Source of the DNA: Thermoleophilia bacterium SCSIO 60948
GTDB lineage: Bacteria > Actinomycetota > Thermoleophilia > Solirubrobacterales > 70-9
Length of the DNA: 64,000 nt
Reading direction: 5' to 3'
Assembly: GCA_021496505.1 (NCBI GenBank)
Contig: CP053031.1
Span: 2,782,001 to 2,846,000, forward strand
In this document: piece after piece, positions 36,306-47,833 of the stretch
How the letters are laid out: the number at the start of each line of letters is the position of its first letter
Position numbering within the stretch: position 1 is the first letter of the stretch
The notes under the pieces: generated by a model
What the model saw: only the letters and a program-made list of their open reading frames with translations
What the model was told of the DNA's origin: nothing
The model's database searches: none
Program-made: the position numbers and the translations under genes

Positions 36306-36349
36306 AACGCGCCCGATTGGATTCGAACCAATGACCTTCGGTTTCGTAG
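36306..36349 (-). repeat. tRNA-Arg 3'-end fragment, distal att copy (R1)
   Basis: A 44-bp sequence identical to 46311-46354. On the minus strand it runs from anticodon-loop base C32 (CTACGAAACCG...) through the T arm to the 3' end plus two bases. The 5' half of the tRNA is missing, so it is not a functional gene. No element-end block precedes it, so it is the outer boundary of the tandem array. Confidence 0.9.
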
Positions 36350-36456
36350 GCTTGAGGTCGTCGATCTCACGCGGTCGTAAGCCGAATGGGACCCTGGGAA
36401 TTCGGAGTCCGTGCGGCAGCCTCGGGTCGGCGACCGTCAATAGCGGGTTCAGATTC

Positions 36457-37836: not shown

Positions 37837-39239
37837 TGCTCGTCTTGAAATGCGGTGAGAAGCGGGCGCGAAATCGTGCCCGCGAAGCCGCCAGGCAGCG
37901 TGCCGTTCGGTTGGCGTTTGAACAGACCGTAGGTGTTCGTTCGCCTTCGAACGCTGTTGTCGCCGTCCGCGACACCGTCACCATCGGCGTCGTCGGTGGC
38001 ACCGTCGTAGTGCCCTGTGTTGTCCGGGCACTTCACATTGCCCTTGTCTGAGTCGCGCGTGTTGTCGACCACACTGAACCAGGCGAGACGCTGGACCGCC
38101 ACCTGCGAGGCGCGGATGTCATTCATCAAACTGGTCAACCGGTCGGCCTGGAGGTCCTCGTCGCGCACGCACTTCCAGCGTCCTGGTTCGCTCGAGTCGG
38201 CATCCGCAACGCCCCAAGCAACCTCCGTCACTCCGACATCCGTCACTCCGTCGAGGGTCGTCAGGTGGCTCCGGACCTTCTCCGGCACCTGACTGGCGGT
38301 TTTGGCGTACGCGTGAATCGTGAGCACATCGAACTTCGTCCGTCTGCTCTGGTTCGTGTTGTATTCCGCGAAGCGCCTGGTCCAGCGCCGCGTGCCGTTC
38401 GTCTCGGCGCCTCCGGCGGCGATTTCGCCTGCGTCAACTCCGATGCCGGGGTCGCCTGCCTCGAGACCGTCGTGGAAATGAACCAGCAGGTCCGAGTAGG
38501 CCTCGGCGCGATTGTTGATCGATGTCAATCCCTCCGGAGCGGCCGGCGAAGAGTCGACCCCCCAGTTCTCCGCAGTGTTCGGCTCGTTCCAAAGCGCGAA
38601 CCGGTCGACGGTGAACGGGCTCGCAGAGCCGTAGTGCGCGGCTAGTGCTTGCGCGAAGGCCTGAAACTCGTCGTAGCGGCTCGGAACCGGCGGGCACATC
38701 TTGACGTCGGTCGCGCCTTGGACTCGAGCGACGCAGTTCGGGTTGGCCGCCCATTCGGGAGCGTCGAGGACGCGAACGGTCCGGATTGGGATCTCGACGT
38801 CGGTCTGATCCGTCGGGTCGTTCAGATACGCGCCGAACTCTTCGTCGTAGGAGTCGAACTGAAGCGGTCGCTCGCCGACGCTGCCGGGCGCGTCCGGCTG
38901 GACGATGCACCAGCGAATCGACAGCTCCACCGCTCCAGTCTGCGCGGCCTGTGAGGCTCGGGCCCCGAGTTGCCCCTGCGCAACGGGCCGCAGAATCGGC
39001 TTCAGGTTCACGTTCGGCTTTTCGCCAGAGGGGCGGCCCTCGTCCGGCGGAGGCTCGGGAAGCGTCTCCGTCGGATCGTCCTCGAGGTAGTCGGCCTTGA
39101 GCGGACCCTCGAGCGGATTGCCATCCTCCTCGTTGGCCGTGCCCTCCGACGGGCAGGAGTCCTTGTCAACCTCGTCCGTGCTCGCCTGGGCCGCCGCCGG
39201 CGGCGCAGACGGCTTAGCAGCGAGCAACGTTGCGAACAT
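37833..39239 (-). CDS. secreted glycoside hydrolase-like protein, clan GH-A style (unit 1); 5' end frameshifted
   Basis: 468 residues from ATG 39239. RFALWNEPNTAENWG (E219) matches the acid/base motif of clan-A TIM-barrel hydrolases (GH39/GH5-like) and DVGVTEVAWG (E339) is in the position of the nucleophile. Before the barrel lies an acidic linker with PLKADYLEDDPTETLPEPPP. ATG 39239 falls inside a hydrophobic segment that continues upstream as LSRLTILIALAAIA, so the true signal peptide begins earlier. ATG 39306, with GGGAAGG nine bases before it, is out of frame by one base because of the G9 tract at 39282-39290. With G8 the reading would be MSASNRGGLSRLTILIALAA. Likely exported, acting on a surface polysaccharide. 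Confidence 0.78.
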   Translation of the reverse strand: MFATLLAAKPSAPPAAAQASTDEVDKDSCPSEGTANEEDGNPLEGPLKADYLEDDPTETLPEPPPDEGRPSGEKPNVNLKPILRPVAQGQLGARASQAAQTGAVELSIRWCIVQPDAPGSVGERPLQFDSYDEEFGAYLNDPTDQTDVEIPIRTVRVLDAPEWAANPNCVARVQGATDVKMCPPVPSRYDEFQAFAQALAAHYGSASPFTVDRFALWNEPNTAENWGVDSSPAAPEGLTSINNRAEAYSDLLVHFHDGLEAGDPGIGVDAGEIAAGGAETNGTRRWTRRFAEYNTNQSRRTKFDVLTIHAYAKTASQVPEKVRSHLTTLDGVTDVGVTEVAWGVADADSSEPGRWKCVRDEDLQADRLTSLMNDIRASQVAVQRLAWFSVVDNTRDSDKGNVKCPDNTGHYDGATDDADGDGVADGDNSVRRRTNTYGLFKRQPNGTLPGGFAGTISRPLLTAFQDEQ

Positions 39240-39306
39240 CGCGATCGCGGCCAGCGCGATCAGGATTGTCAGTCTTGATAGCCCCCCCCCGGTTGCTAGC
39301 GCTCAT
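39214..39306 (-). promoter_or_regulatory. G9 tract and off-frame 30-aa leader of the unit 1 hydrolase
   Basis: ATG 39306 has a good ribosome site but with nine G (39282-39290, read C9 on plus) runs into a 30-codon frame ending at 39214. Loss of one G joins it to the signal peptide and the enzyme. The codons between the tract and ATG 39239 differ from unit 2 by a change that is silent only in the signal-peptide frame, so that frame is under coding selection. Confidence 0.6.
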
Positions 39307-39572
39307 CAGTGCCGCCTTCCCGTGGGCTAAGCCGCTCGGGGCGACCTGTTCGATCGGTGATTCTTGCAGACGGGCCGAGAGTCCCGGTGAGGGTGGCCGG
39401 TTGATCGAGTCGACCTCAGCGGGGCGGGCGAGCGAGATCTGGAGCCCTTGTCGGTGGCCGGTCGAGCCGCGCGCTGGCGGGACCACGCCCATTTGAGTGT
39501 TGGCTCGCCTACGAAGCAGTCACCATCGCAAGGCCCAACGGCGAGGGCCCGCGCGAAAGTCTGCATCGCGAG

Positions 39573-39730
39573 AGAGCCTGAATACGGTTCTACGGAGCGC
39601 CCTCCGCGCGATAGTTGCGAGATAGTCCCGCACCGCATGGATGAGCCATCTGGCCTCAGAGGCGAAGTGGCGGCTGTTGCGGCACCTGTCGACACTCCGC
39701 GTGCCAGAGCGGTTTGTCGGCCTTCAGAGC
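39573..39730. other. conserved unit-end block of unit 1
   Basis: About 158 bp similar to the blocks at 42944-43102 and 46151-46310, each abutting a tRNA-Arg repeat. At 39606-39628 are two near-tandem 11-mers, GCGCGATAGTT and GCGAGATAGTC, 125 bp from the att copy. Tandem ~10-bp repeats at this distance are typical of arm-type sites for tyrosine recombinases. Confidence 0.55.
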
Positions 39731-39774
39731 AACGCGCCCGATTGGATTCGAACCAATGACCTTCGGTTTCGTAG
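39731..39774 (-). repeat. tRNA-Arg 3'-end fragment (R2)
   Basis: The same 44 bp as R1, R3 and the 3' part of the intact tRNA, with no mismatch. Immediately beyond the anticodon-loop end the four copies diverge, so the anticodon loop is the edge of identity. Confidence 0.9.
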
Positions 39775-39908
39775 CCTCGACGTCGCCCGCGCGCTGAGTC
39801 GGCCGGCGGCTGGCTCGGTTCGAGCGATCCGCCAAGTCCGCGAGCGCGGACCCACGGGCAAGGCCAGGCCCGGGACCCGATCGGGCGGGTCCGTAGCCTC
39901 AGAGTGGG

Positions 39909-41276
39909 CTAGCGGCGCTCGCCTCGAACCCTTGCGATCGCGATGTCCTCGGGCTTGCCCGGCTTGCGGTCGGAGTAGCCAGCGACGAGGGCATCGCCGT
40001 TTCGCCCTGCAGCGACTGCCGTCGCGAGATCATCGTGGTGTCGGGGGAGCTGCGGACGCATATCGATACGTACCGTTCCATCCCCGTCTCCGAAGGTGCG
40101 ATCGAGCTGACCGTCGGCGCGCAGGCGAGCCAGCGCAAACCGCCTGACTCTGTCCGGACCCCCGCCGAAGTTCGTGTAACCCGCCATCAATATCCGCCCC
40201 TTCGAGTCCCGGTCCATGGCCCAGGCCTCTTCCTCTCCTTCGCGATTCTTGATCGTCGCCTCGGCCAGGCCCCGGTCGCCGAAGCTGGTGTCGGTATCGC
40301 CGTTCGGCAGTGATCTCACCGCGGCCATTCGAAATCCGTCCCCGTCGAATGAGGTGCCGGCAGCGAGGATCCGGTCGTCCGCCAACACCTCGACCGCATG
40401 GGCGACACCGACCGAGACCGGCCCTCGGTATTCGACCCCGTTGACCCCGAAGCCCGTGTCGATCTGCCCATCGACGGTGAAGCGCGAGAGGATCCAGCTT
40501 CCGCCGACTTCGCCGACGACGATCGCCTTCCCGTCTGACTGCAGGTCGACGCCGTAGCCGCGGGCGTAGGTGTCCTCGCCGTAGGTGGTAAAGAGGTGGC
40601 CGTCGCCGGAGAACGAGGTGTCGAGCTCGCCGTTTGGCAGGAAACGGGCCATTGCGACCGAGTAGCCGCCGGTGACGGCATTCTCCGTTTCGCCGGCGAC
40701 CGTGATCTTGCCGTCCGGGCCGACAACGACGTCTTTAGCGATCGATCCGCCGTTGATGGGCGCGAAGGAGGACCCGTTCTCGCCGAAGCCGCGATCCAGC
40801 TTGCCGTTCTTGGTGAAACGGGCCAAGCCGAGCTCGGACTCGCAGCCACCGACCACGATGATCTTGCCGCTCTCCAGCGGCGTGATTCCATGACCGGCGT
40901 AGCAGCGCCGAGCCTTTGCGACACCGTTGTCGCCGAAGCTCCTGTCGCGGCGACCCGAGTGGTCGTAGCGGACCAGGACCATCGTGCCCGTGCCATTCGG
41001 TGCGACGGTGTTGCCGCCGACCAAGATCTTTCCGTCGGGCTGCACGGCGACCGAGTAGCCGACGTCTCGTTTGCCGCCTGCAAGGTCATCAAGCTGCCGC
41101 CCGTCGTCGCCGAACGACTTAACGAGTGAGCCGGGCGATTGCTTCGTCGACTCGGCCATAGCTACGCCCTCGTCGTCCGATCCCGCTGCCGCGGCCACGG
41201 TCGTCAGCGCGGCCAGAACCGCGACGATGAGGATGGCCCAGGCAGCAAGCCCGCCCGAAGCTGAGCCGGTTCTCAT
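39909..41276 (-). CDS. secreted delta-60 repeat beta-propeller protein (unit 2)
   Basis: A 455-residue homologue of the unit 1 propeller. Signal segment LAAWAILIVAVLAALTTVAA, then seven blades with SVAVQPDGKILVGG, GITPLESGKIIVVGG, DVVVGPDGKITVAGE, GVDLQSDGKAIVVGE, AVEVLADDRILAAGT, AMDRDSKGRILMAGY and AVAAGRNGDALVAGY. The fourth blade is identical to unit 1. The N-terminal signal sequences are unrelated, while the blades are close, so the passenger is conserved and the exporter leader replaced or diverged. Overlaps the hydrolase stop by 4 bp. Confidence 0.82.
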   Translation of the reverse strand: MRTGSASGGLAAWAILIVAVLAALTTVAAAAGSDDEGVAMAESTKQSPGSLVKSFGDDGRQLDDLAGGKRDVGYSVAVQPDGKILVGGNTVAPNGTGTMVLVRYDHSGRRDRSFGDNGVAKARRCYAGHGITPLESGKIIVVGGCESELGLARFTKNGKLDRGFGENGSSFAPINGGSIAKDVVVGPDGKITVAGETENAVTGGYSVAMARFLPNGELDTSFSGDGHLFTTYGEDTYARGYGVDLQSDGKAIVVGEVGGSWILSRFTVDGQIDTGFGVNGVEYRGPVSVGVAHAVEVLADDRILAAGTSFDGDGFRMAAVRSLPNGDTDTSFGDRGLAEATIKNREGEEEAWAMDRDSKGRILMAGYTNFGGGPDRVRRFALARLRADGQLDRTFGDGDGTVRIDMRPQLPRHHDDLATAVAAGRNGDALVAGYSDRKPGKPEDIAIARVRGERR

Positions 41277-42610
41277 TGCTCGTTTTGGAACGCTTCGAGC
41301 AGGAACTGACGCGGAACGGCATCGGCAAATCCATCGTCAAGCGAACCGTCGGGCTGGCGCTTGAAGAGGCCGAACGTGTTGATGCCATCACGGACGTTGT
41401 TCGCGTAGTAGCCGCTGTTGTCAGGGCACTTCACGGACTCCCCTGGGGCGACTGCCTTCTTGTTGTCGATAACGCTGAACCAAGCGACGCGGTGTATCGG
41501 CACCCGAGTGGCGTGAACCTCATCCATGAGGTCAACCAGCCGGTTTCGCTGTGCCAAGTTGCTCGATACGCATTTCCAGCGCCCCTGCGCCGAGCTCTCG
41601 TTGGCGATACCCCACGCAACTTCGGTGACCCCGACCGCGGTCACCCCCGGCAGGTCGCGGTGGCTTCGGACCTTCTCGGGAACCTGATCAGGAGTCTCCG
41701 AGTAGGCGTGGATCGTCAAGACGTCGAAGTTGTCATCACGCCCCTCATTCGAGTTGTAAGCGGCGAAGCGGTCGGTCCAGCGACGGGTGCCGTTCTTAGT
41801 CTCGCCGCCCGCTGCGAGCTCGCCCGCATCCACGCTGACTCCTGGATCCCCAGCGTCGAGCCCGTTGTGGAATCGGGCGAGTAGGTCAGAGTAGGCGTCG
41901 GCACGGTCTTGGATCGAGCTCAGAGGTTCTCGGTCATCAGGGGGATCCGAGTCGACGCCCCAATTCTCAGCCGTGTTCGGCTCGTTCCAGAGCGCGAAGC
42001 GATCGATCGTGAAGCGGCTGGCGGATCCGTAGTGCTCGGCGAGATCCTCTGAGAAGTCCTTGAAGTCGTTGTAGTGCTCGAAGACCGGCGGACACATCGT
42101 GACGTCGGTGTCCTCGACGAGATCGATGCAGTCCTGATCGATCGCCCATTCCGGAGCATCGAGCACGCGAACGGTGCGGATTGGGATCCCAGCATCGACG
42201 TAGGCGTCGAACTCCTCGTCGTAGGCCTCCCACTGGTACTCGGGCGGCTCGGTATCGACCGGCTCGTCGGGCTGGAGGATGCACCAGCGGATCGAGAGCT
42301 CGACGGCGCCGGTGTCGGCGCTAGCGGATGCAGCGGCTCCCGTCTCACCTTCGGCGACCGGGCGCAGGATCGGCTTCAGGTTCTCGTTCGGAGGCGGACC
42401 GCTCGGCCGGCCTTCGTCGGGCGGCGGCTCGGGGAGCGTCTCGGTCGGATCGTCCTCGAGGTAGTCGGCCTTCAGCGGGCCCTCAAGCGGGTTGGCGGCG
42501 TCGTCGTTGGGCGTCCCTGTCGACGGGCAAGAGGACTTGTCGACCGGTGTGCTGCCTTGCGCTTCAGCCGGTGGTGGCCCGTGTCTAGAGCTCGACAACG
42601 CTGCGAACAT
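41273..42610 (-). CDS. secreted glycoside hydrolase-like protein (unit 2); 5' end frameshifted
   Basis: 445 residues from ATG 42610. RFALWNEPNTAENWG gives the acid/base glutamate E210 and AVGVTEVAWG the putative nucleophile E330; conserved cysteines lie in RWCILQPD, VTMCPPV and KWKCVS-type positions. The acidic PLKADYLEDDPTETLPEPPP linker is the same as in unit 1. As there, the hydrophobic signal continues upstream (LSRLTILIALAAIA) and ATG 42677 with its GGGAAGG site is one base out of frame because of a G9 tract at 42653-42661. Confidence 0.78.
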   Translation of the reverse strand: MFAALSSSRHGPPPAEAQGSTPVDKSSCPSTGTPNDDAANPLEGPLKADYLEDDPTETLPEPPPDEGRPSGPPPNENLKPILRPVAEGETGAAASASADTGAVELSIRWCILQPDEPVDTEPPEYQWEAYDEEFDAYVDAGIPIRTVRVLDAPEWAIDQDCIDLVEDTDVTMCPPVFEHYNDFKDFSEDLAEHYGSASRFTIDRFALWNEPNTAENWGVDSDPPDDREPLSSIQDRADAYSDLLARFHNGLDAGDPGVSVDAGELAAGGETKNGTRRWTDRFAAYNSNEGRDDNFDVLTIHAYSETPDQVPEKVRSHRDLPGVTAVGVTEVAWGIANESSAQGRWKCVSSNLAQRNRLVDLMDEVHATRVPIHRVAWFSVIDNKKAVAPGESVKCPDNSGYYANNVRDGINTFGLFKRQPDGSLDDGFADAVPRQFLLEAFQNEQ

Positions 42611-42677
42611 CGCGATCGCGGCCAGCGCGATCAGGATCGTCAGTCTTGATAGCCCCCCCCCGGTTGCTAGCGCTCAT
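42585..42677 (-). promoter_or_regulatory. G9 tract and off-frame 30-aa leader of the unit 2 hydrolase
   Basis: The second copy of the arrangement at 39214-39306: start codon, MSASNRGG, G9 (42653-42661), then a 30-codon frame ending at 42585. With G8 the signal peptide and enzyme are read. Start, tract length and off-frame stop position are the same in both units. Confidence 0.6.
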
Positions 42678-42943
42678 CAGTGCCGCCTTCCCGTGGGCTA
42701 AGCCGCTCGGGGCGACCTGTTCGATCTGTGATTCTTGCAGACCGGCCAAGAGCTCCGCCGAGGCTGGCCGGATGATTGAGTCGACCTCAGCGCGGTAGGC
42801 GGGCGAGATCTGGCGCTCGTGGTCGGTGGGCGGTCGAGCCGCGCGCTGGCGGTACCACGCATCTGAGTTTTGGCTCGCCACGAGACCAGCAGGTCACAGC
42901 AAGGCCCTGCGACGGGGCGCCGCGCGAAAGTCTGCTCGGCGAG

Positions 42944-43102
42944 AGAGCCTGAACACGGCTCTATGCAGCGCCCTCCGCGCGATAGTTGCGCGATAGTCCG
43001 GCATCGCATAGATGAGCCATTCGGCTTCTGAGGCCGAAGTGGCAGCTGTTGCGGGCCCCGTCGAGATACCGCATGCCCAAGCGGTTTCTAGCCCTTTAGA
43101 TC
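42944..43102. other. conserved unit-end block of unit 2
   Basis: Similar to 39573-39730 and 46151-46310. The tandem 11-mers GCGCGATAGTT and GCGCGATAGTC are perfect here (42977-42999), 126 bp from att copy R3. Confidence 0.55.
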
Positions 43103-43146
43103 AACGCGCCCGATTGGATTCGAACCAATGACCTTCGGTTTCGTAG
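43103..43146 (-). repeat. tRNA-Arg 3'-end fragment (R3)
   Basis: Third exact copy of the 44-bp tRNA-Arg 3' end. Just beyond it CTTGCCGTC (43147 region) and GACCGCAAG form an 8-of-9 inverted repeat, a possible core-flanking or terminator structure. Confidence 0.9.
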
Positions 43147-43381
43147 TCTTGCCGTCAGCCTTAGGCGACCGCAAGTGGCGAGAGCTGGCGACTAGCGCCG
43201 ACCGCTGACGACCCTCCCTGACTGTCCGGTAACGACGCAGGGCGCCGACCGTGCTCCGGTGACACGCGACCTCGGCACCCTCTCAACGGAGCGTGAACCT
43301 AGGCACTTGTGACAAGCGCTCGAAAAATCCGTAGTGTTTTAGTAGCGGCGCCTGAGGTCCGCACGATCTACGGAGGACGGG
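43147..43381. other. noncoding start of unit 3 with AT-rich promoter region
   Basis: 235 bp without a gene. The last 60 bp (GCTCGAAAAATCCGTAGTGTTTTAGTAG) are much richer in A/T than the rest of the window and end in GGAGGACGGG just before ATG 43382, so this is probably a leadered promoter, unlike the leaderless core genes. Confidence 0.4.
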
Positions 43382-43897
43382 ATGGGAACGAAGGGGAGAC
43401 TGGCAGCGCTGCTAGCTGTGCTGATCTGTGCGGTCGGTGGCGTGGTCGCCATAGCCGCAGCGCACGAGGCGGATGACTTCTCGGTTGTCCCTGAGGAGCC
43501 CATCGCCGAGCCGAGCCCGAACAACCCCGGCGGGGTGCCCGAGGGCCCGGAGGTCAACTTCTGCCCTACGCATGAGCAGACCGAAGCGCACCTCGACCGC
43601 TACGGCTTCGACTACAAGCCAACGGTGCCGTGCACGCGCGACGGCGAGCTCGAAGAAGTTGAGCCGGCGCCGAGCGACCCTTACGCGGGCGAGACAAACA
43701 GCGAGATCGTCCAGGAGCAGAATCAAGACTTGCGACAGGCGGAGCCGGTCCCACCGACCGACAACGACCCCTCCACGATCGAGGGCGAGACGCCGAACGG
43801 GAATGACGTGACGATCGAGCTGTTGGTGCCACCCGAGGAGGAGATGAACATCGACGAGTTCGCCGAAGAGGTCACCGGATCCGACGGATCGAACTAA
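43382..43897 (+). CDS. acidic exported or membrane-anchored protein (unit 3)
   Basis: 171 residues: a signal/anchor helix (RLAALLAVLICAVGGVVAIA), then a strongly acidic, proline-rich chain with two cysteines (VNFCPTHEQTEAHLDRYGFD and PTVPCTRDGELEE). No known domain. Good ribosome site GGAGG. Its stop overlaps the ATG of the metalloprotease by one base (TAATG), so the two are coupled; it could be an inhibitor, chaperone or surface anchor for the protease. Confidence 0.7.
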   Translation: MGTKGRLAALLAVLICAVGGVVAIAAAHEADDFSVVPEEPIAEPSPNNPGGVPEGPEVNFCPTHEQTEAHLDRYGFDYKPTVPCTRDGELEEVEPAPSDPYAGETNSEIVQEQNQDLRQAEPVPPTDNDPSTIEGETPNGNDVTIELLVPPEEEMNIDEFAEEVTGSDGSN

Positions 43898-44505
43898 TGC
43901 GGCGCCGGCGGATCGTCCTAACCACGGCCGTCATCCCCTTGATCGTGGCTTGTTGCGCAGCTTTAGCCGCACCTGCGAGCGGCAATCACGATCTTGCCGT
44001 GGGGGCCCATTGGAACGACGGTGATGGCCAGCAGGCCAAGATGACGTTTGTCGACAACACGGGGGCGCCCTGGCCGATCTACGCGGCGGCCAACACGTGG
44101 GACAACGCGGGTCGAATCGTCGTCGCCTACAACGCGAACAACTGCAACGGAGACCCGCATTGCGTGGGGGTCAACGCAACGAATATGGGCGGGGACTCCT
44201 GCAACGCGAACCCGGGGTACTTCGCGTGGAACGCGAACTCATCGCGACACCTACTAGCTGCGCAGTCGTACATCAGGCTCAACCAAGACTGCAATCCGCG
44301 GTCAACACGGGTTCAGCGGTTCATTGCCTGTCACGAAGAAGGACACGCGACTGGTCTAGACGACGAGCCGCAGAGCATTCGCGATCAAACATGCATGGCC
44401 GCGGGGACGGCGCCGCCTCACCCGGATTTCGATACCTGGGAAGAGACACCGCGCCCGCATGACTTCGAGATGCTGGACAACCAGATCTACACCCACAACG
44501 ACTAA
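43897..44505 (+). CDS. secreted metzincin-type metalloprotease, snapalysin-like motif (unit 3)
   Basis: 202 residues with a signal peptide (IVLTTAVIPLIVACCAALAA, cleaved near APASG). The zinc motif is HEEGHATGLDD (146-156), i.e. HExxHxxGxxD with an aspartate third ligand as in snapalysin (M7), followed by CMAAG (166-170) at the Met-turn and HDFEMLDNQIYTH at the end, as in matrixin-like proteases. Six cysteines (NNCNGDPHC, DSCNANPG, QDCNPRS, FIACHEE, QTCMAAG) suggest disulfides. Likely a small extracellular endopeptidase. Confidence 0.8.
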   Translation: MRRRRIVLTTAVIPLIVACCAALAAPASGNHDLAVGAHWNDGDGQQAKMTFVDNTGAPWPIYAAANTWDNAGRIVVAYNANNCNGDPHCVGVNATNMGGDSCNANPGYFAWNANSSRHLLAAQSYIRLNQDCNPRSTRVQRFIACHEEGHATGLDDEPQSIRDQTCMAAGTAPPHPDFDTWEETPRPHDFEMLDNQIYTHND

Positions 44506-44521
44506 GTCCGGGTCCAAGGAC

Positions 44522-44552
44522 AGAGCCCCTCACCTTCCGGGGTACGGGGTCT
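44522..44552 (+). terminator. terminator-like hairpin after the metalloprotease
   Basis: AGAGCCCC and GGGGTCT flank a 15-base loop that itself contains CCGG, with T-rich sequence (TTCGTTTGTCT) after it. It lies 16 bp past the stop codon. The stem has a bulge, so the call is tentative. Confidence 0.35.
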
Positions 44553-44660
44553 TCGTTTGTCTGCGTTCGCGAGATTCAGACTCGCGATCGTACGATTGCG
44601 CCGAGAAGCACCGGTTGCACGACGCCTAGGGCTGGTGGCCCCGCGTACCCGAGCCCTGCT

Positions 44661-45063
44661 TCGATCATTCGGCTCCGAAGCGAGCCCTTCGACAGCCTAG
44701 AGATCGGCTACTGCTTCGCCGCTCTCGTGCTTGCGGTCGTAACCGGACTGGCACTTGACGACGCTGCGTTCAACGCTCTGTTGGCGGGACTGATGCTCGT
44801 CGCGTGCTCCTTCCGGACACCGTGCCTTCTACCGCCGCGTGCGCCGGCGCCGCGTGCCCCTCGATCGCATCCAGGTCGACCCGACCGAGCTCCACGACCG
44901 GCTCCGCCGAGAGTTCGGTATCGAGGTGATCGACCGCGCGATCACCGACGTCGTCGACTACGCGCGGGAGTCGACCGATGTGTCGATCAGGTTCATCGAC
45001 GACCCCGCCTCCTCGCGAGGGTCGCGGCACTCGGTACGGGGGTCGTCGTCTCGCACCGACTGA
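44661..45063 (+). pseudogene. decayed membrane-protein ORF (unit 3)
   Basis: No start codon. In one frame from 44661: IIRLRSEPFDSLEIGYCFAA then LVLAVVTGLALDDAAFNALL, then near 44816 a one-base shift into another frame reading HRAFYRRVRRRRVPLDRIQV and LHDRLRREFGIEVIDRAITD up to a stop at 45063. A helix followed by a ferredoxin-like tail of this type occurs in DUF4956 proteins, but the match is from memory. The 5' part is missing. Around it, 44553-44660 and 45064-45136 show no gene. Confidence 0.4.
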
Positions 45064-45136
45064 CGGTCTTGCGCTGAACCTAGCCGCGGAATGACTGGGG
45101 CCTAACAATCCGGTGAGCTCGGCCTCGCTGTCGGTC

Positions 45137-45523
45137 TCAGCCCGGCGGCTCGGCCACCGCCCGGATTTCGACCAGGGCGCCAGGCGTGATCAGCTCCGAG
45201 ACCCCGATTGCCGACCAGGCCGGATAGGGCGGCTCGATCCAGCGGTCCTTGACCGCCAGGAACGGTTCGAGGTGTTCGCGCAGTCCGACGTGGTAGCTCG
45301 TGATCTCGACGAGATCGCCGATCGAGCAACCAGCGGGCTCGAGATAGGCGCGCAGATGCTCGAAGGCTTGATGGAACTGCGTGGCGGGATCCGGATCTAC
45401 CCGGCCGTCGACGGAGGTTCCGGTGACCCCCGAGCAGAAGACAAGACCCCGCGCCTCGACGGTGTGCGTGAAGTGCCAATGGGCCTCGAAGCCTTCGAGT
45501 CCCTCTGGTACGTAGCGCTTCAC
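45137..45523 (-). CDS. RidA/YjgF/UK114-family protein (unit 3)
   Basis: A 128-residue Rid-fold protein: GLVFCSGVTGTSVDGRVDPD, QFHQAFEHLRAYLEPAGCSI with GDLVEITSYHVGL and YPAWSAIGVSELITPGALVE. The C-terminal stretch IEIRAVAEPPG lacks the arginine (R105 in E. coli RidA, in the xxRxE context) only in part: VEIRAVAE keeps an arginine. Members hydrolyse reactive enamines/imines or bind small molecules as trimers. It is on the strand opposite to the protease genes. Confidence 0.85.
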   Translation of the reverse strand: MKRYVPEGLEGFEAHWHFTHTVEARGLVFCSGVTGTSVDGRVDPDPATQFHQAFEHLRAYLEPAGCSIGDLVEITSYHVGLREHLEPFLAVKDRWIEPPYPAWSAIGVSELITPGALVEIRAVAEPPG

Positions 45524-45647
45524 CTCGGTGGCCCGACTCTGCGTCCGCGTGCGGTCATATCGCCGTTTTCTACCTGGTCTTTTCGCGGGGCGAGCCGTGC
45601 CACCGCGGACCCTCAGCGCGCTGACAGCGCGTATCGAGCGCCAACCC

Positions 45648-46016
45648 CTACCCCACCACCTCCATCACCCGCGCCGCCAGGCCGGCGTGCGAAGAGTCGT
45701 CGCGGGGAGCCTCTCCCGGACGCGGCATTCCAAAGCAAAGCGCGAAGCTGCGAGCGAGCTTGGCCACGTAGGCGGCGCGCATCGGCGCGCTCATCTCGGC
45801 GACCTCTTCCGGGCTCGGGCTGAACTCGTCTCCGTAGAGCTCCTCGCCCTCGGTGTCCCAGAGCTCGATCGAGCCGCTCGACGTCGCCTCGAGCAGCCGG
45901 CGAAGCAGCTCGGTCAGATCGTCGCGATCGTTGATCATGTCGCCGGTCGGCAGCTTCGAGGCGAGCTCGATCAGCTGCGGGGCCCACTCGGGGGCGTCGG
46001 TGATGGTCGTCTTCAT
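45648..46016 (-). CDS. small hypothetical protein (unit 3)
   Basis: 122 residues, soluble, largely helical: MKTTITDAPEWAPQLIELAS, LTELLRRLLEATSSGSIELW, then GDEFSPSPEEVAEMSAPMRA. No motif I recognise. ATG 46016 has a purine-rich leader (AAGGACC). It is the gene nearest the unit-end block and the tRNA, but nothing about it resembles an excisionase or recombinase: no helix-turn-helix is obvious. From 46017 to 46150 I see no gene. Confidence 0.6.
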   Translation of the reverse strand: MKTTITDAPEWAPQLIELASKLPTGDMINDRDDLTELLRRLLEATSSGSIELWDTEGEELYGDEFSPSPEEVAEMSAPMRAAYVAKLARSFALCFGMPRPGEAPRDDSSHAGLAARVMEVVG

Positions 46017-46150
46017 GGAGGGGTCCTTTCTTCGTGTTCTTCCCTCTCGAAGGACGCTACGGCACGGTTTGGCTCCGGGGTCGGTTTGGACCGAGGGAAT
46101 CTGCGAACTCGTGCATGTCGGCGATCCTGCGCGACAGTCGCGTTGGCCGA

Positions 46151-46310
46151 ACGCCTCGAAAACGGCTCTGCCAAGGCTCCTCCCGCGCGATGGTTGCGCG
46201 ATAGTCCGACACCGCATGGATAAGCCATCTGGGGTTCTCGCACCCAACGGCGGATGGCTGCGGAGATGTTCGACACCCGCTTGAGCAAGCGGTTTGTGCG
46301 GCCTAGAAGG
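46151..46310. other. conserved unit-end block of unit 3
   Basis: Similar to 39573-39730 and 42944-43102. GCGCGATGGTT and GCGCGATAGTC (46185-46207) lie 126 bp from the 3' end of the intact tRNA. The block also keeps CACCGCATGGATAAGCCATC and GAGCAAGCGGTTTGT. Confidence 0.55.
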
Positions 46311-46354
46311 AACGCGCCCGATTGGATTCGAACCAATGACCTTCGGTTTCGTAG
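46311..46354 (-). repeat. tRNA-Arg 3' end, att copy within the intact gene (R4)
   Basis: The 44 bp shared with R1-R3. In tRNA terms it covers the anticodon loop from base 32, the 3' anticodon stem, variable loop, T arm, acceptor 3' strand, discriminator G and two following bases. Insertion here preserves the gene, the usual outcome of tRNA-targeting site-specific recombination. Confidence 0.9.
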
Positions 46355-46386
46355 ACCGACGCTCTATCCAACTGAGCTACGGGCGC
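46313..46386 (-). tRNA. tRNA-Arg (anticodon ACG)
   Basis: A complete 74-nt cloverleaf: acceptor GCGCCCG/CGGGCGC, D arm GCUC...GAGC, anticodon stem UCGGU/ACCGA with loop CUACGAA (anticodon ACG), T arm AUUGG UUCGAAU CCAAU, discriminator G. CCA is not encoded. It is the only full copy; three truncated copies lie on its 3' side. Confidence 0.97.
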
Positions 46387-46487
46387 GTGCCGGGGTCTCG
46401 GAAGACCTCGGGCGGAGGATCGTAGCGACGGCCGGAGGCCGTGAGCCCTGAGGCCGCACTGAGGCGCCCCGGCTAGCCTGCCGTGCC

Positions 46488-47143: not shown

Positions 47144-47180
47144 GACGTCCTCTCGTGTTGCGGGCTGCTGACCTGTAAAG

Positions 47181-47208
47181 ACCCTATACCGGTCATATGA
47201 CCTGTCAA
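47181..47208 (-). promoter_or_regulatory. promoter with a 12-bp palindrome in the spacer
   Basis: On the minus strand, TTGACA (complement of 47203-47208) and TAGGGT (complement of 47181-47186) are 16 bp apart. The spacer contains the perfect palindrome GGTCATATGACC (47191-47202), and a half-site GGTCAT recurs at 47220. A repressor bound there would block this promoter; the divergent CGNR protein is the obvious candidate. Confidence 0.5.
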
Positions 47209-47242
47209 GCCTTTTTGCCGGTCATGTGGCTAACATCACCCC

Positions 47243-47833
47243 ATGGACGTCGCCGAGCTCAACCGGCAGGTCGAGTACAAGCAGGCTCCGGCGCCTCTGC
47301 TCGCGGTCCAGGCGCTGCTCAACACCTACGACTTCTCGGAGGACGAGGAGGTGCTGCTGAGCCCGGAGTCGACGGCCGAGTGGCTACTGCGCTCCGATCT
47401 GGCCGCGGGCGACGCCACCGTTGATGCCGACGATCACCGCGCGCTCGTCGAGCTTCGGACCGCGCTGCGCGCGGTCGCCGAATCGCACCTGTCCGGCGAG
47501 CTCGACGCCACCGCCGAGTCCACCCTCGCCGAGCTCGCCGCACGACATCCGGTACGACTGCGAGCCACGGGCGACGGCGGGGTCGGCCTCGACCTCGAGC
47601 CGGTCGAAAACGTCGATGGGCTCATCTCGCAGATGCTCGGGATCGTGTTCGAATCGCAGCGTGCCGACACTTGGAGCCGGCTGAAGATCTGCGGCGCCGA
47701 CGACTGCCGCTGGGCGTTCTACGACGCGTCGAAGAACCGCGGTGGGCACTGGTGCCGGATGGACCTGTGCGGTAACCGGGCGAAGAACCGGACCTACCGC
47801 GAGCGCGGCACGGGGAGCTCCAGCGAGGGCTAG
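47243..47833 (+). CDS. CGNR zinc-finger transcriptional regulator (ABATE domain)
   Basis: 196 residues. An N-terminal ABATE-like helical domain (LLAVQALLNTYDFSEDEEVL, DDHRALVELRTALRAVAESH) is followed by the C-terminal CGNR zinc finger: LKICGADDCRWAFYDASKNR, WCRMDLCGNRAKNRTYR. Such proteins are DNA-binding regulators of stress or catabolic genes. ATG 47243 follows TAACAT (47231-47236) by 6 nt. Confidence 0.9.
   Translation: MDVAELNRQVEYKQAPAPLLAVQALLNTYDFSEDEEVLLSPESTAEWLLRSDLAAGDATVDADDHRALVELRTALRAVAESHLSGELDATAESTLAELAARHPVRLRATGDGGVGLDLEPVENVDGLISQMLGIVFESQRADTWSRLKICGADDCRWAFYDASKNRGGHWCRMDLCGNRAKNRTYRERGTGSSSEG

Follow-up and report, generated by a model that had tools for sequence, protein, structure and literature searches.

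The end blocks adjoining the repeated tRNA sequences of this array are probably the attL-type ends of CIME-like, non-autonomous elements whose recombination was carried out in trans by a tyrosine integrase that the genome now lacks. Within the window, i.e., the whole stretch of 64,000 nucleotides that was analysed, a 44-bp core is present in four identical att copies (Table 1); it corresponds to the 3' half of tRNA-Arg(ACG) and spans the anticodon loop to just beyond the acceptor end. The copies delimit three units of 3,425, 3,372 and 3,208 bp, all three of them without an integrase, and the units have att sites at both ends, as CIMEs do, with the core at all four boundaries. Neither a recombinase nor a relaxase was found in units 1-3 (Pfam on the main ORFs and, for integrase, an integrase HMM). 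Having no integrase of their own, the units are not autonomous integrative elements, and no remnant genes of a decayed ICE or IME were found in them.

Table 1. Coordinates of the att copies, end blocks, arm-like repeats and cargo genes in the window
Feature	Position	Strand	Basis or remark
Distal att copy R1, 44-bp core, left side without end block	36306..36349	+	
Predicted 7-bp overlap TTCGTAG (anticodon loop) and right half-site ending GGTC, R1	36343..36359	+	
Unit 1, DUF5122 beta-propeller protein, 459 aa	36457..37836	-	Pfam
Unit 1, glycosyl-hydrolase-like protein (PF11790), 468 aa	37833..39239	-	Pfam
End block B1, element side of att copy 2	39551..39730	+	
Outer arm-like 11-mer GCGCGAAAGTC, B1	39551..39561	+	newly found
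Tandem arm-like 11-mers GCGCGATAGTT GCGAGATAGTC, B1	39606..39627	+	
Internal att copy 2	39731..39774	+	
Predicted overlap and right half-site (..CGTC), att copy 2	39768..39784	+	
Unit 2, DUF5122 beta-propeller protein, 455 aa	39909..41276	-	Pfam
Unit 2, glycosyl-hydrolase-like protein (PF11790), 445 aa	41273..42610	-	Pfam
End block B2, beside att copy 3	42922..43102	+	
Outer arm-like 11-mer GCGCGAAAGTC, B2	42922..42932	+	newly found
Tandem arm-like 11-mers GCGCGATAGTT GCGCGATAGTC, B2	42977..42998	+	
Internal att copy 3	43103..43146	+	
Predicted overlap and right half-site (..CGTC), att copy 3	43140..43156	+	
Unit 3, two adjoining ORFs of unknown function, 171 and 202 aa	43382..44505	+	ORF list, Pfam
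Unit 3, RidA/L-PSP family protein, 128 aa	45137..45523	-	Pfam
End block B3, adjoining intact tRNA	46129..46310	+	
Outer arm-like 11-mer GCGCGACAGTC, B3	46129..46139	+	newly found
Tandem arm-like 11-mers GCGCGATGGTT GCGCGATAGTC, B3	46185..46206	+	
Intact tRNA-Arg(ACG), target gene (att core 46311-46354)	46312..46387	-	ARAGORN, Rfam

The blocks B1-B3 are non-coding, measure approx. 180 bp each, and lie directly left of att copies 2, 3 and 4. The initial annotation had described them as alike over 160 bp (39573-39730, 42944-43102 and 46151-46310), and this likeness is clear from local alignment without the att core, in which B3 scores 104 against B1 and 87 against B2, compared with a mean of 20 (sd 2.6) and a maximum of 34 for 2,895 random 190-mers of the window. 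The tandem 11-mers are likewise found where they had been reported (starts at 39606/39617, 42977/42988 and 46185/46196), i.e., 125-126 bp from the att core. Their number and the block length required correction, because a third 11-mer, GCGCGA[AC]AGTC, is present in all three blocks 55-56 bp outside the tandem pair and extends each block to approx. 180 bp. A block had been claimed for every internal att copy and denied for the distal repeat; it is present at three of the four copies, and R1 indeed has none, as its flank aligns to the blocks at the background level (scores of 15-20). No copy beyond the three at the att sites was found in the 3.42-Mb genome, and the search of the conserved non-coding stretch against Rfam yielded neither a riboswitch nor any other RNA. 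The 11-mers are well supported as putative arm-type sites on the basis of their position and co-variation, and the end block as a whole may represent the minimal mobile end.

Several features of the cargo are worth recording. The only homopolymers of at least 8 nucleotides in the window are two G9 tracts on the minus strand (39282-39290 and 42653-42661), each located at the start of one of the two glycosyl-hydrolase genes; with one G fewer, a typical signal peptide opens both frames, and the tracts could reflect phase variation, slippage or a homopolymer sequencing error. A leader and upstream region (39231-39380 and 42602-42751) shows 96-99% identity between the two units and has no match in Rfam, although silent sites in the genes of both units are saturated; gene conversion or strong constraint can be suggested for this. 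Outside the array, palindromic GGTCATATGACC repeats (47169-47224) lie just upstream of a CGNR/ABATE regulator gene (47243-47833) and are possibly its operator. The beta-propeller protein of unit 1 has a larger relative in another genus, where it is encoded by an integrase-less unit (L054 12147-14363, genome G032).

To the right of each partial core the sequence diverges abruptly, and the half-sites there differ. Since a new half-site begins past each partial att copy, the likely place of crossover is the 7-bp anticodon loop, TTCGTAG, where we infer cleavage from the sequence. As in a lambda-type attL, inverted half-sites (TGACC..TTCGTAG..GTC) surround this 7-bp overlap, the centre of which is the middle anticodon base. 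Of the 46 partial copies, 15 have GTC at +8..+10, among them the three described here, compared with 0-5 at other offsets.

It is reasonable to assume that the end block represents the attL-type arm, with arm sites and core, on the tRNA side of a family of small non-autonomous elements, for which a tyrosine integrase would be supplied in trans by an autonomous element that has been lost or was never resident. The N-terminal domain of such an integrase would contact the 11-mers, its catalytic part would occupy the core half-sites, and strand exchange across TTCGTAG would insert a circular unit at the tRNA. Each new unit would displace the older ones outward from the tRNA, which would make unit 3 the youngest; R1 would then be the far end of the first insertion, with an older, block-free flank as its left neighbour. 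The distal ends of the units yielded no second set of arms, and the units themselves may have decayed and may no longer be mobile.

The tandem pair of 11-mers strongly marks the 3' ends of tRNA genes. The pattern GCGATRGTYN{1,4}GMGATRGTY matches seven times in 50 family genomes, and all seven matches (the three blocks described here, two att copies in G009, and one match each in G019 and G024) are located at a tRNA 3' end or a tRNA-derived att copy, the G024 match approx. 115 bp from the 3' end of tRNA-SeC; the reversed control pattern yields no match in the same genomes. Thus, within these 50 genomes the pattern does not occur in coding DNA or far from tRNA repeats, the finding against which the initial annotation had staked its interpretation. 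In the blocks of G009 and G019, too, an outer repeat resembling the third 11-mer can be seen. At the order level, G096 adds three matches in the blocks of a Ser-type att array, and seven further matches, mostly in coding DNA and without a tRNA nearby, look like chance. A stricter pattern applied to 399 class genomes adds G284 at tRNA-SeC and a single match without a tRNA in G255. In G284, the 22-mer of B2 recurs without any change next to tRNA-SeC, which is present there in two copies separated by 2.4 kb (L243 8229-10705) that enclose a cargo-only unit with window-type arms; this unit contains one large ORF, a hydrolase-cyclase fusion by reading of its sequence. Another cargo-only unit with window-type arms, 4 kb in length, is present in G009 (L058 132-4160), and its cargo, read in the same manner, appears to consist of a UV-endonuclease gene and a cation antiporter gene, the frame of which runs through the att core. 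In IMG/VR, the strict pattern has no match, and the loose pattern has many that are read as chance, none of them near both an integrase and a tRNA.

Many tandem tRNA-Arg(ACG) att arrays are carried by the relatives. Among the 38 units measured, 31 (0.2-21.5 kb) have no integrase, a statement that is weaker in the relatives than in the window, where it is firm, because many of these genomes are fragmented; the other seven (5.2-14.7 kb) have one. Five or six of the seven adjoin the tRNA (with the G085 unit excluded, five of six touch the tRNA or are recent), i.e., integrase-bearing units mostly adjoin the intact tRNA, as sequential insertion predicts. Different arm types occur at characteristic distances: type D, GAGCRNTAGTCC (10 occurrences on both strands of approx. 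0.65 Mb, 10/10 at -120/-122), type A, a TTGMCTG tandem (10/13 at -87 to -90), type B, a GATGNGAC tandem (3/3 at -143/-144), and the window-type tandem motif (4/4 at -133/-134), although these counts describe how strongly the motifs cluster at att sites and should not be taken as independent tests, because the motifs were defined after the same blocks had been inspected. Less bias attaches to the scans of the family, the order and the class with the window pattern. When tandem 10-12-mers were scanned for generically, the result taken by itself was noisy (at least 9 matches at 23 of 68 sites vs. 319 of 2,000 controls), unlike the position-specific motifs, which gave a clear signal.

The arm types follow the integrase clades. 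Type D arms go with the L054/L065 integrases (82% identical), type A with L044/L053 (65%), and type B with L048/L059 (75%); for L065, in G030, the type D tRNA block lies on a different contig from the integrase. This agreement comprises three clades and few events, with no exception where both partners are readable, and the arms of two other integrases, L060 and L116, fit none of the types A, B and D. Integrase-less units also match the arm type of their array, as in G028 (A,A,A), G010 (A,A) and G032 (D,D), and these shared arm types lend sequence support to a putative mobilisation of such units by a related integrase. In the relatives, the repeated putative arm-type sites stand at a fixed distance and are integrase-specific, as in a lambda-type attL. 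The earlier proposal that the block is a recognition end with arm-type sites gains support from this match between clade and arm, together with the specificity for tRNA sites.

The helper integrase was sought at several levels. The inner 11-mer of the window, GCGCGATAGTCC at -123, is one letter and one position off type D, and this near identity to the GAGCGATAGTCC arm in both sequence and position suggests that the helper possibly came from the L054/L065 clade, which is paired with GAGCGATAGTCC arms in relatives. No integrase of the L054 clade is present in the source genome at an E value of 1e-40 or better. Nor was an intact integrase found to share a unit, an array or a genome with window-type arms, save in G019, which encodes a distant (43%) relative of L054 on a contig other than that of the arms. 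In G096, which comes closest, the integrase gene beside the window-type array is broken and belongs to a clade different from that of L054. Other candidates were rejected. None of the six tyrosine-recombinase loci of the same genome has window-type arms in its flanks. The separate 9.4-kb island at tRNA-Arg(TCT) (G000:C1:2072439-2081846), with an integrase of its own at the distal end, has a different end. The clade of the G013 integrase (L286), which is 63% identical to the C-terminal integrase fragment of G096, showed no window-type arms in the flanks of 30 relatives, where the tRNA-side ends mostly lie outside the flanks.

A serious rival to recombination in trans is that the units are fossils, i.e., formerly autonomous elements that lost their integrase after insertion and never moved in trans, so that the blocks are leftover attL arms of CIMEs formed by decay and accretion. 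Both explanations accept arm sites and integration and thus overlap, and we regard the second as possible but somewhat doubtful. Decay followed by tandem accretion is the accepted model for most tandem arrays (PMC5704250), the integrase-bearing units of relatives tend to be tRNA-proximal and hence youngest, and in G096 an integrase gene within such an array is broken. However, units 1 and 2 retain the same two intact genes under purifying selection (dN/dS approx. 0.2-0.3) with no trace of an integrase, decay must have removed the integrase twice with the same outcome, and the blocks have kept all three 11-mers.

The initial annotation had also argued for integration rather than duplication, which the differing half-sites beside the partial cores support. 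This holds for unit 3, an independent insertion: as had been noted, its cargo is unrelated to that of its neighbour, and outside the blocks units 2 and 3 align with a score of 32, compared with 26-31 for shuffles, i.e., with nothing clearly above the shuffled level. For units 1 and 2, separate integrations are favoured rather than proven. They have cargo in common as well as an end region of approx. 550 bp with 75-99% identity, as would be expected if unequal recombination between the att repeats had duplicated one of them in tandem, with unit 3 as the only independent insertion. Nonetheless, such a duplication is unlikely, since it should have left homologous flanks to the right of R1 and att copy 2, yet the first 107-134 bp of the two units do not align (identity of 0.36 vs. 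a shuffled mean of 0.42). Their proteins are 61-65% identical, with dS above 1.1 and dN/dS of approx. 0.19-0.28, and because the genes are saturated at silent sites, any duplication of one element, whether here or elsewhere, would be very old. No empty site without any unit was found in the relatives, in which homologues of the left-flank gene are not located at tRNA-Arg loci. Finally, the block is very unlikely to be a trailer or terminator on the 3' side of the tRNA gene that is maintained for tRNA processing and was copied along with the gene. Its position immediately downstream of the tRNA and a short inverted repeat near the core (CCGCTTG..AAGCGG) would fit this reading, but it has also been retained next to partial tRNA copies that lack a promoter, it is missing at R1, its arm motifs vary among relatives in step with the integrase clade, and the tandem motif also occurs at tRNA-SeC and a Ser-type site.

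Judged by analogy, an array of attL-type ends served in trans would work like several known systems. CIMEs are att-bounded tandem units without an integrase that arise by decay and accretion (PMC5704250); like the units described here, they lack integrase and transfer genes and are stacked at one target gene. However, they are defined as decayed ICEs or IMEs, whereas most units of this lineage are small and cargo-only and keep arm sites, which in three relatives match a co-resident integrase. The ssrA-specific genomic islands of Dehalococcoides also stand in tandem, with repeats of the 3' end of an RNA gene as their boundaries, and 15 of 31 have no integration module (PMC3146451); they employ a serine recombinase at the T-loop of tmRNA, in contrast to the tyrosine integrases, the anticodon loop of tRNA-Arg and the arm-type repeats considered here. 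The additive flexible genomic islands of Methylophilaceae similarly consist of variable cargo units (330 bp-42 kb) preceded by tRNA-Lys 3' copies, although their repeat is 20 bp and the accessible portion of that report describes no arm sites or recombinase assignment (PMC10872708). The lambda-family attL of KplE1, recognized by the bivalent integrase IntS, also combines core-type and arm-type sites inside the element beside a tRNA, but there the integrase gene adjoins attL (PMC2951348). CALIN integron arrays, too, are tandem cargo cassettes without an integrase that rely on one from elsewhere; they use attC sites and an integron integrase instead of tRNA-derived att sites with arms (PMC11389934).

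What appears to be new here is that complete clade-specific arm sets are kept in cargo-only units and that one arm set is found at three tRNA targets. Tentatively, this might point to a tRNA-based cassette system, in which cargo-only stacks would keep full clade-specific arm sets, a single passing tyrosine integrase could insert, excise and exchange units in trans, as an integron integrase does for a CALIN array, and the same arm set would be reused at tRNA-Arg, tRNA-SeC and a tRNA-Ser-type site. If the interpretation is right, short arm-site signatures beside tRNA genes could serve to locate non-autonomous units and to link each of them to its helper integrase by sequence alone, a task that is generally not possible for islands lacking an integrase. 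The build-up of unlinked cargo at one tRNA in the absence of any mobility gene would be explained as well.
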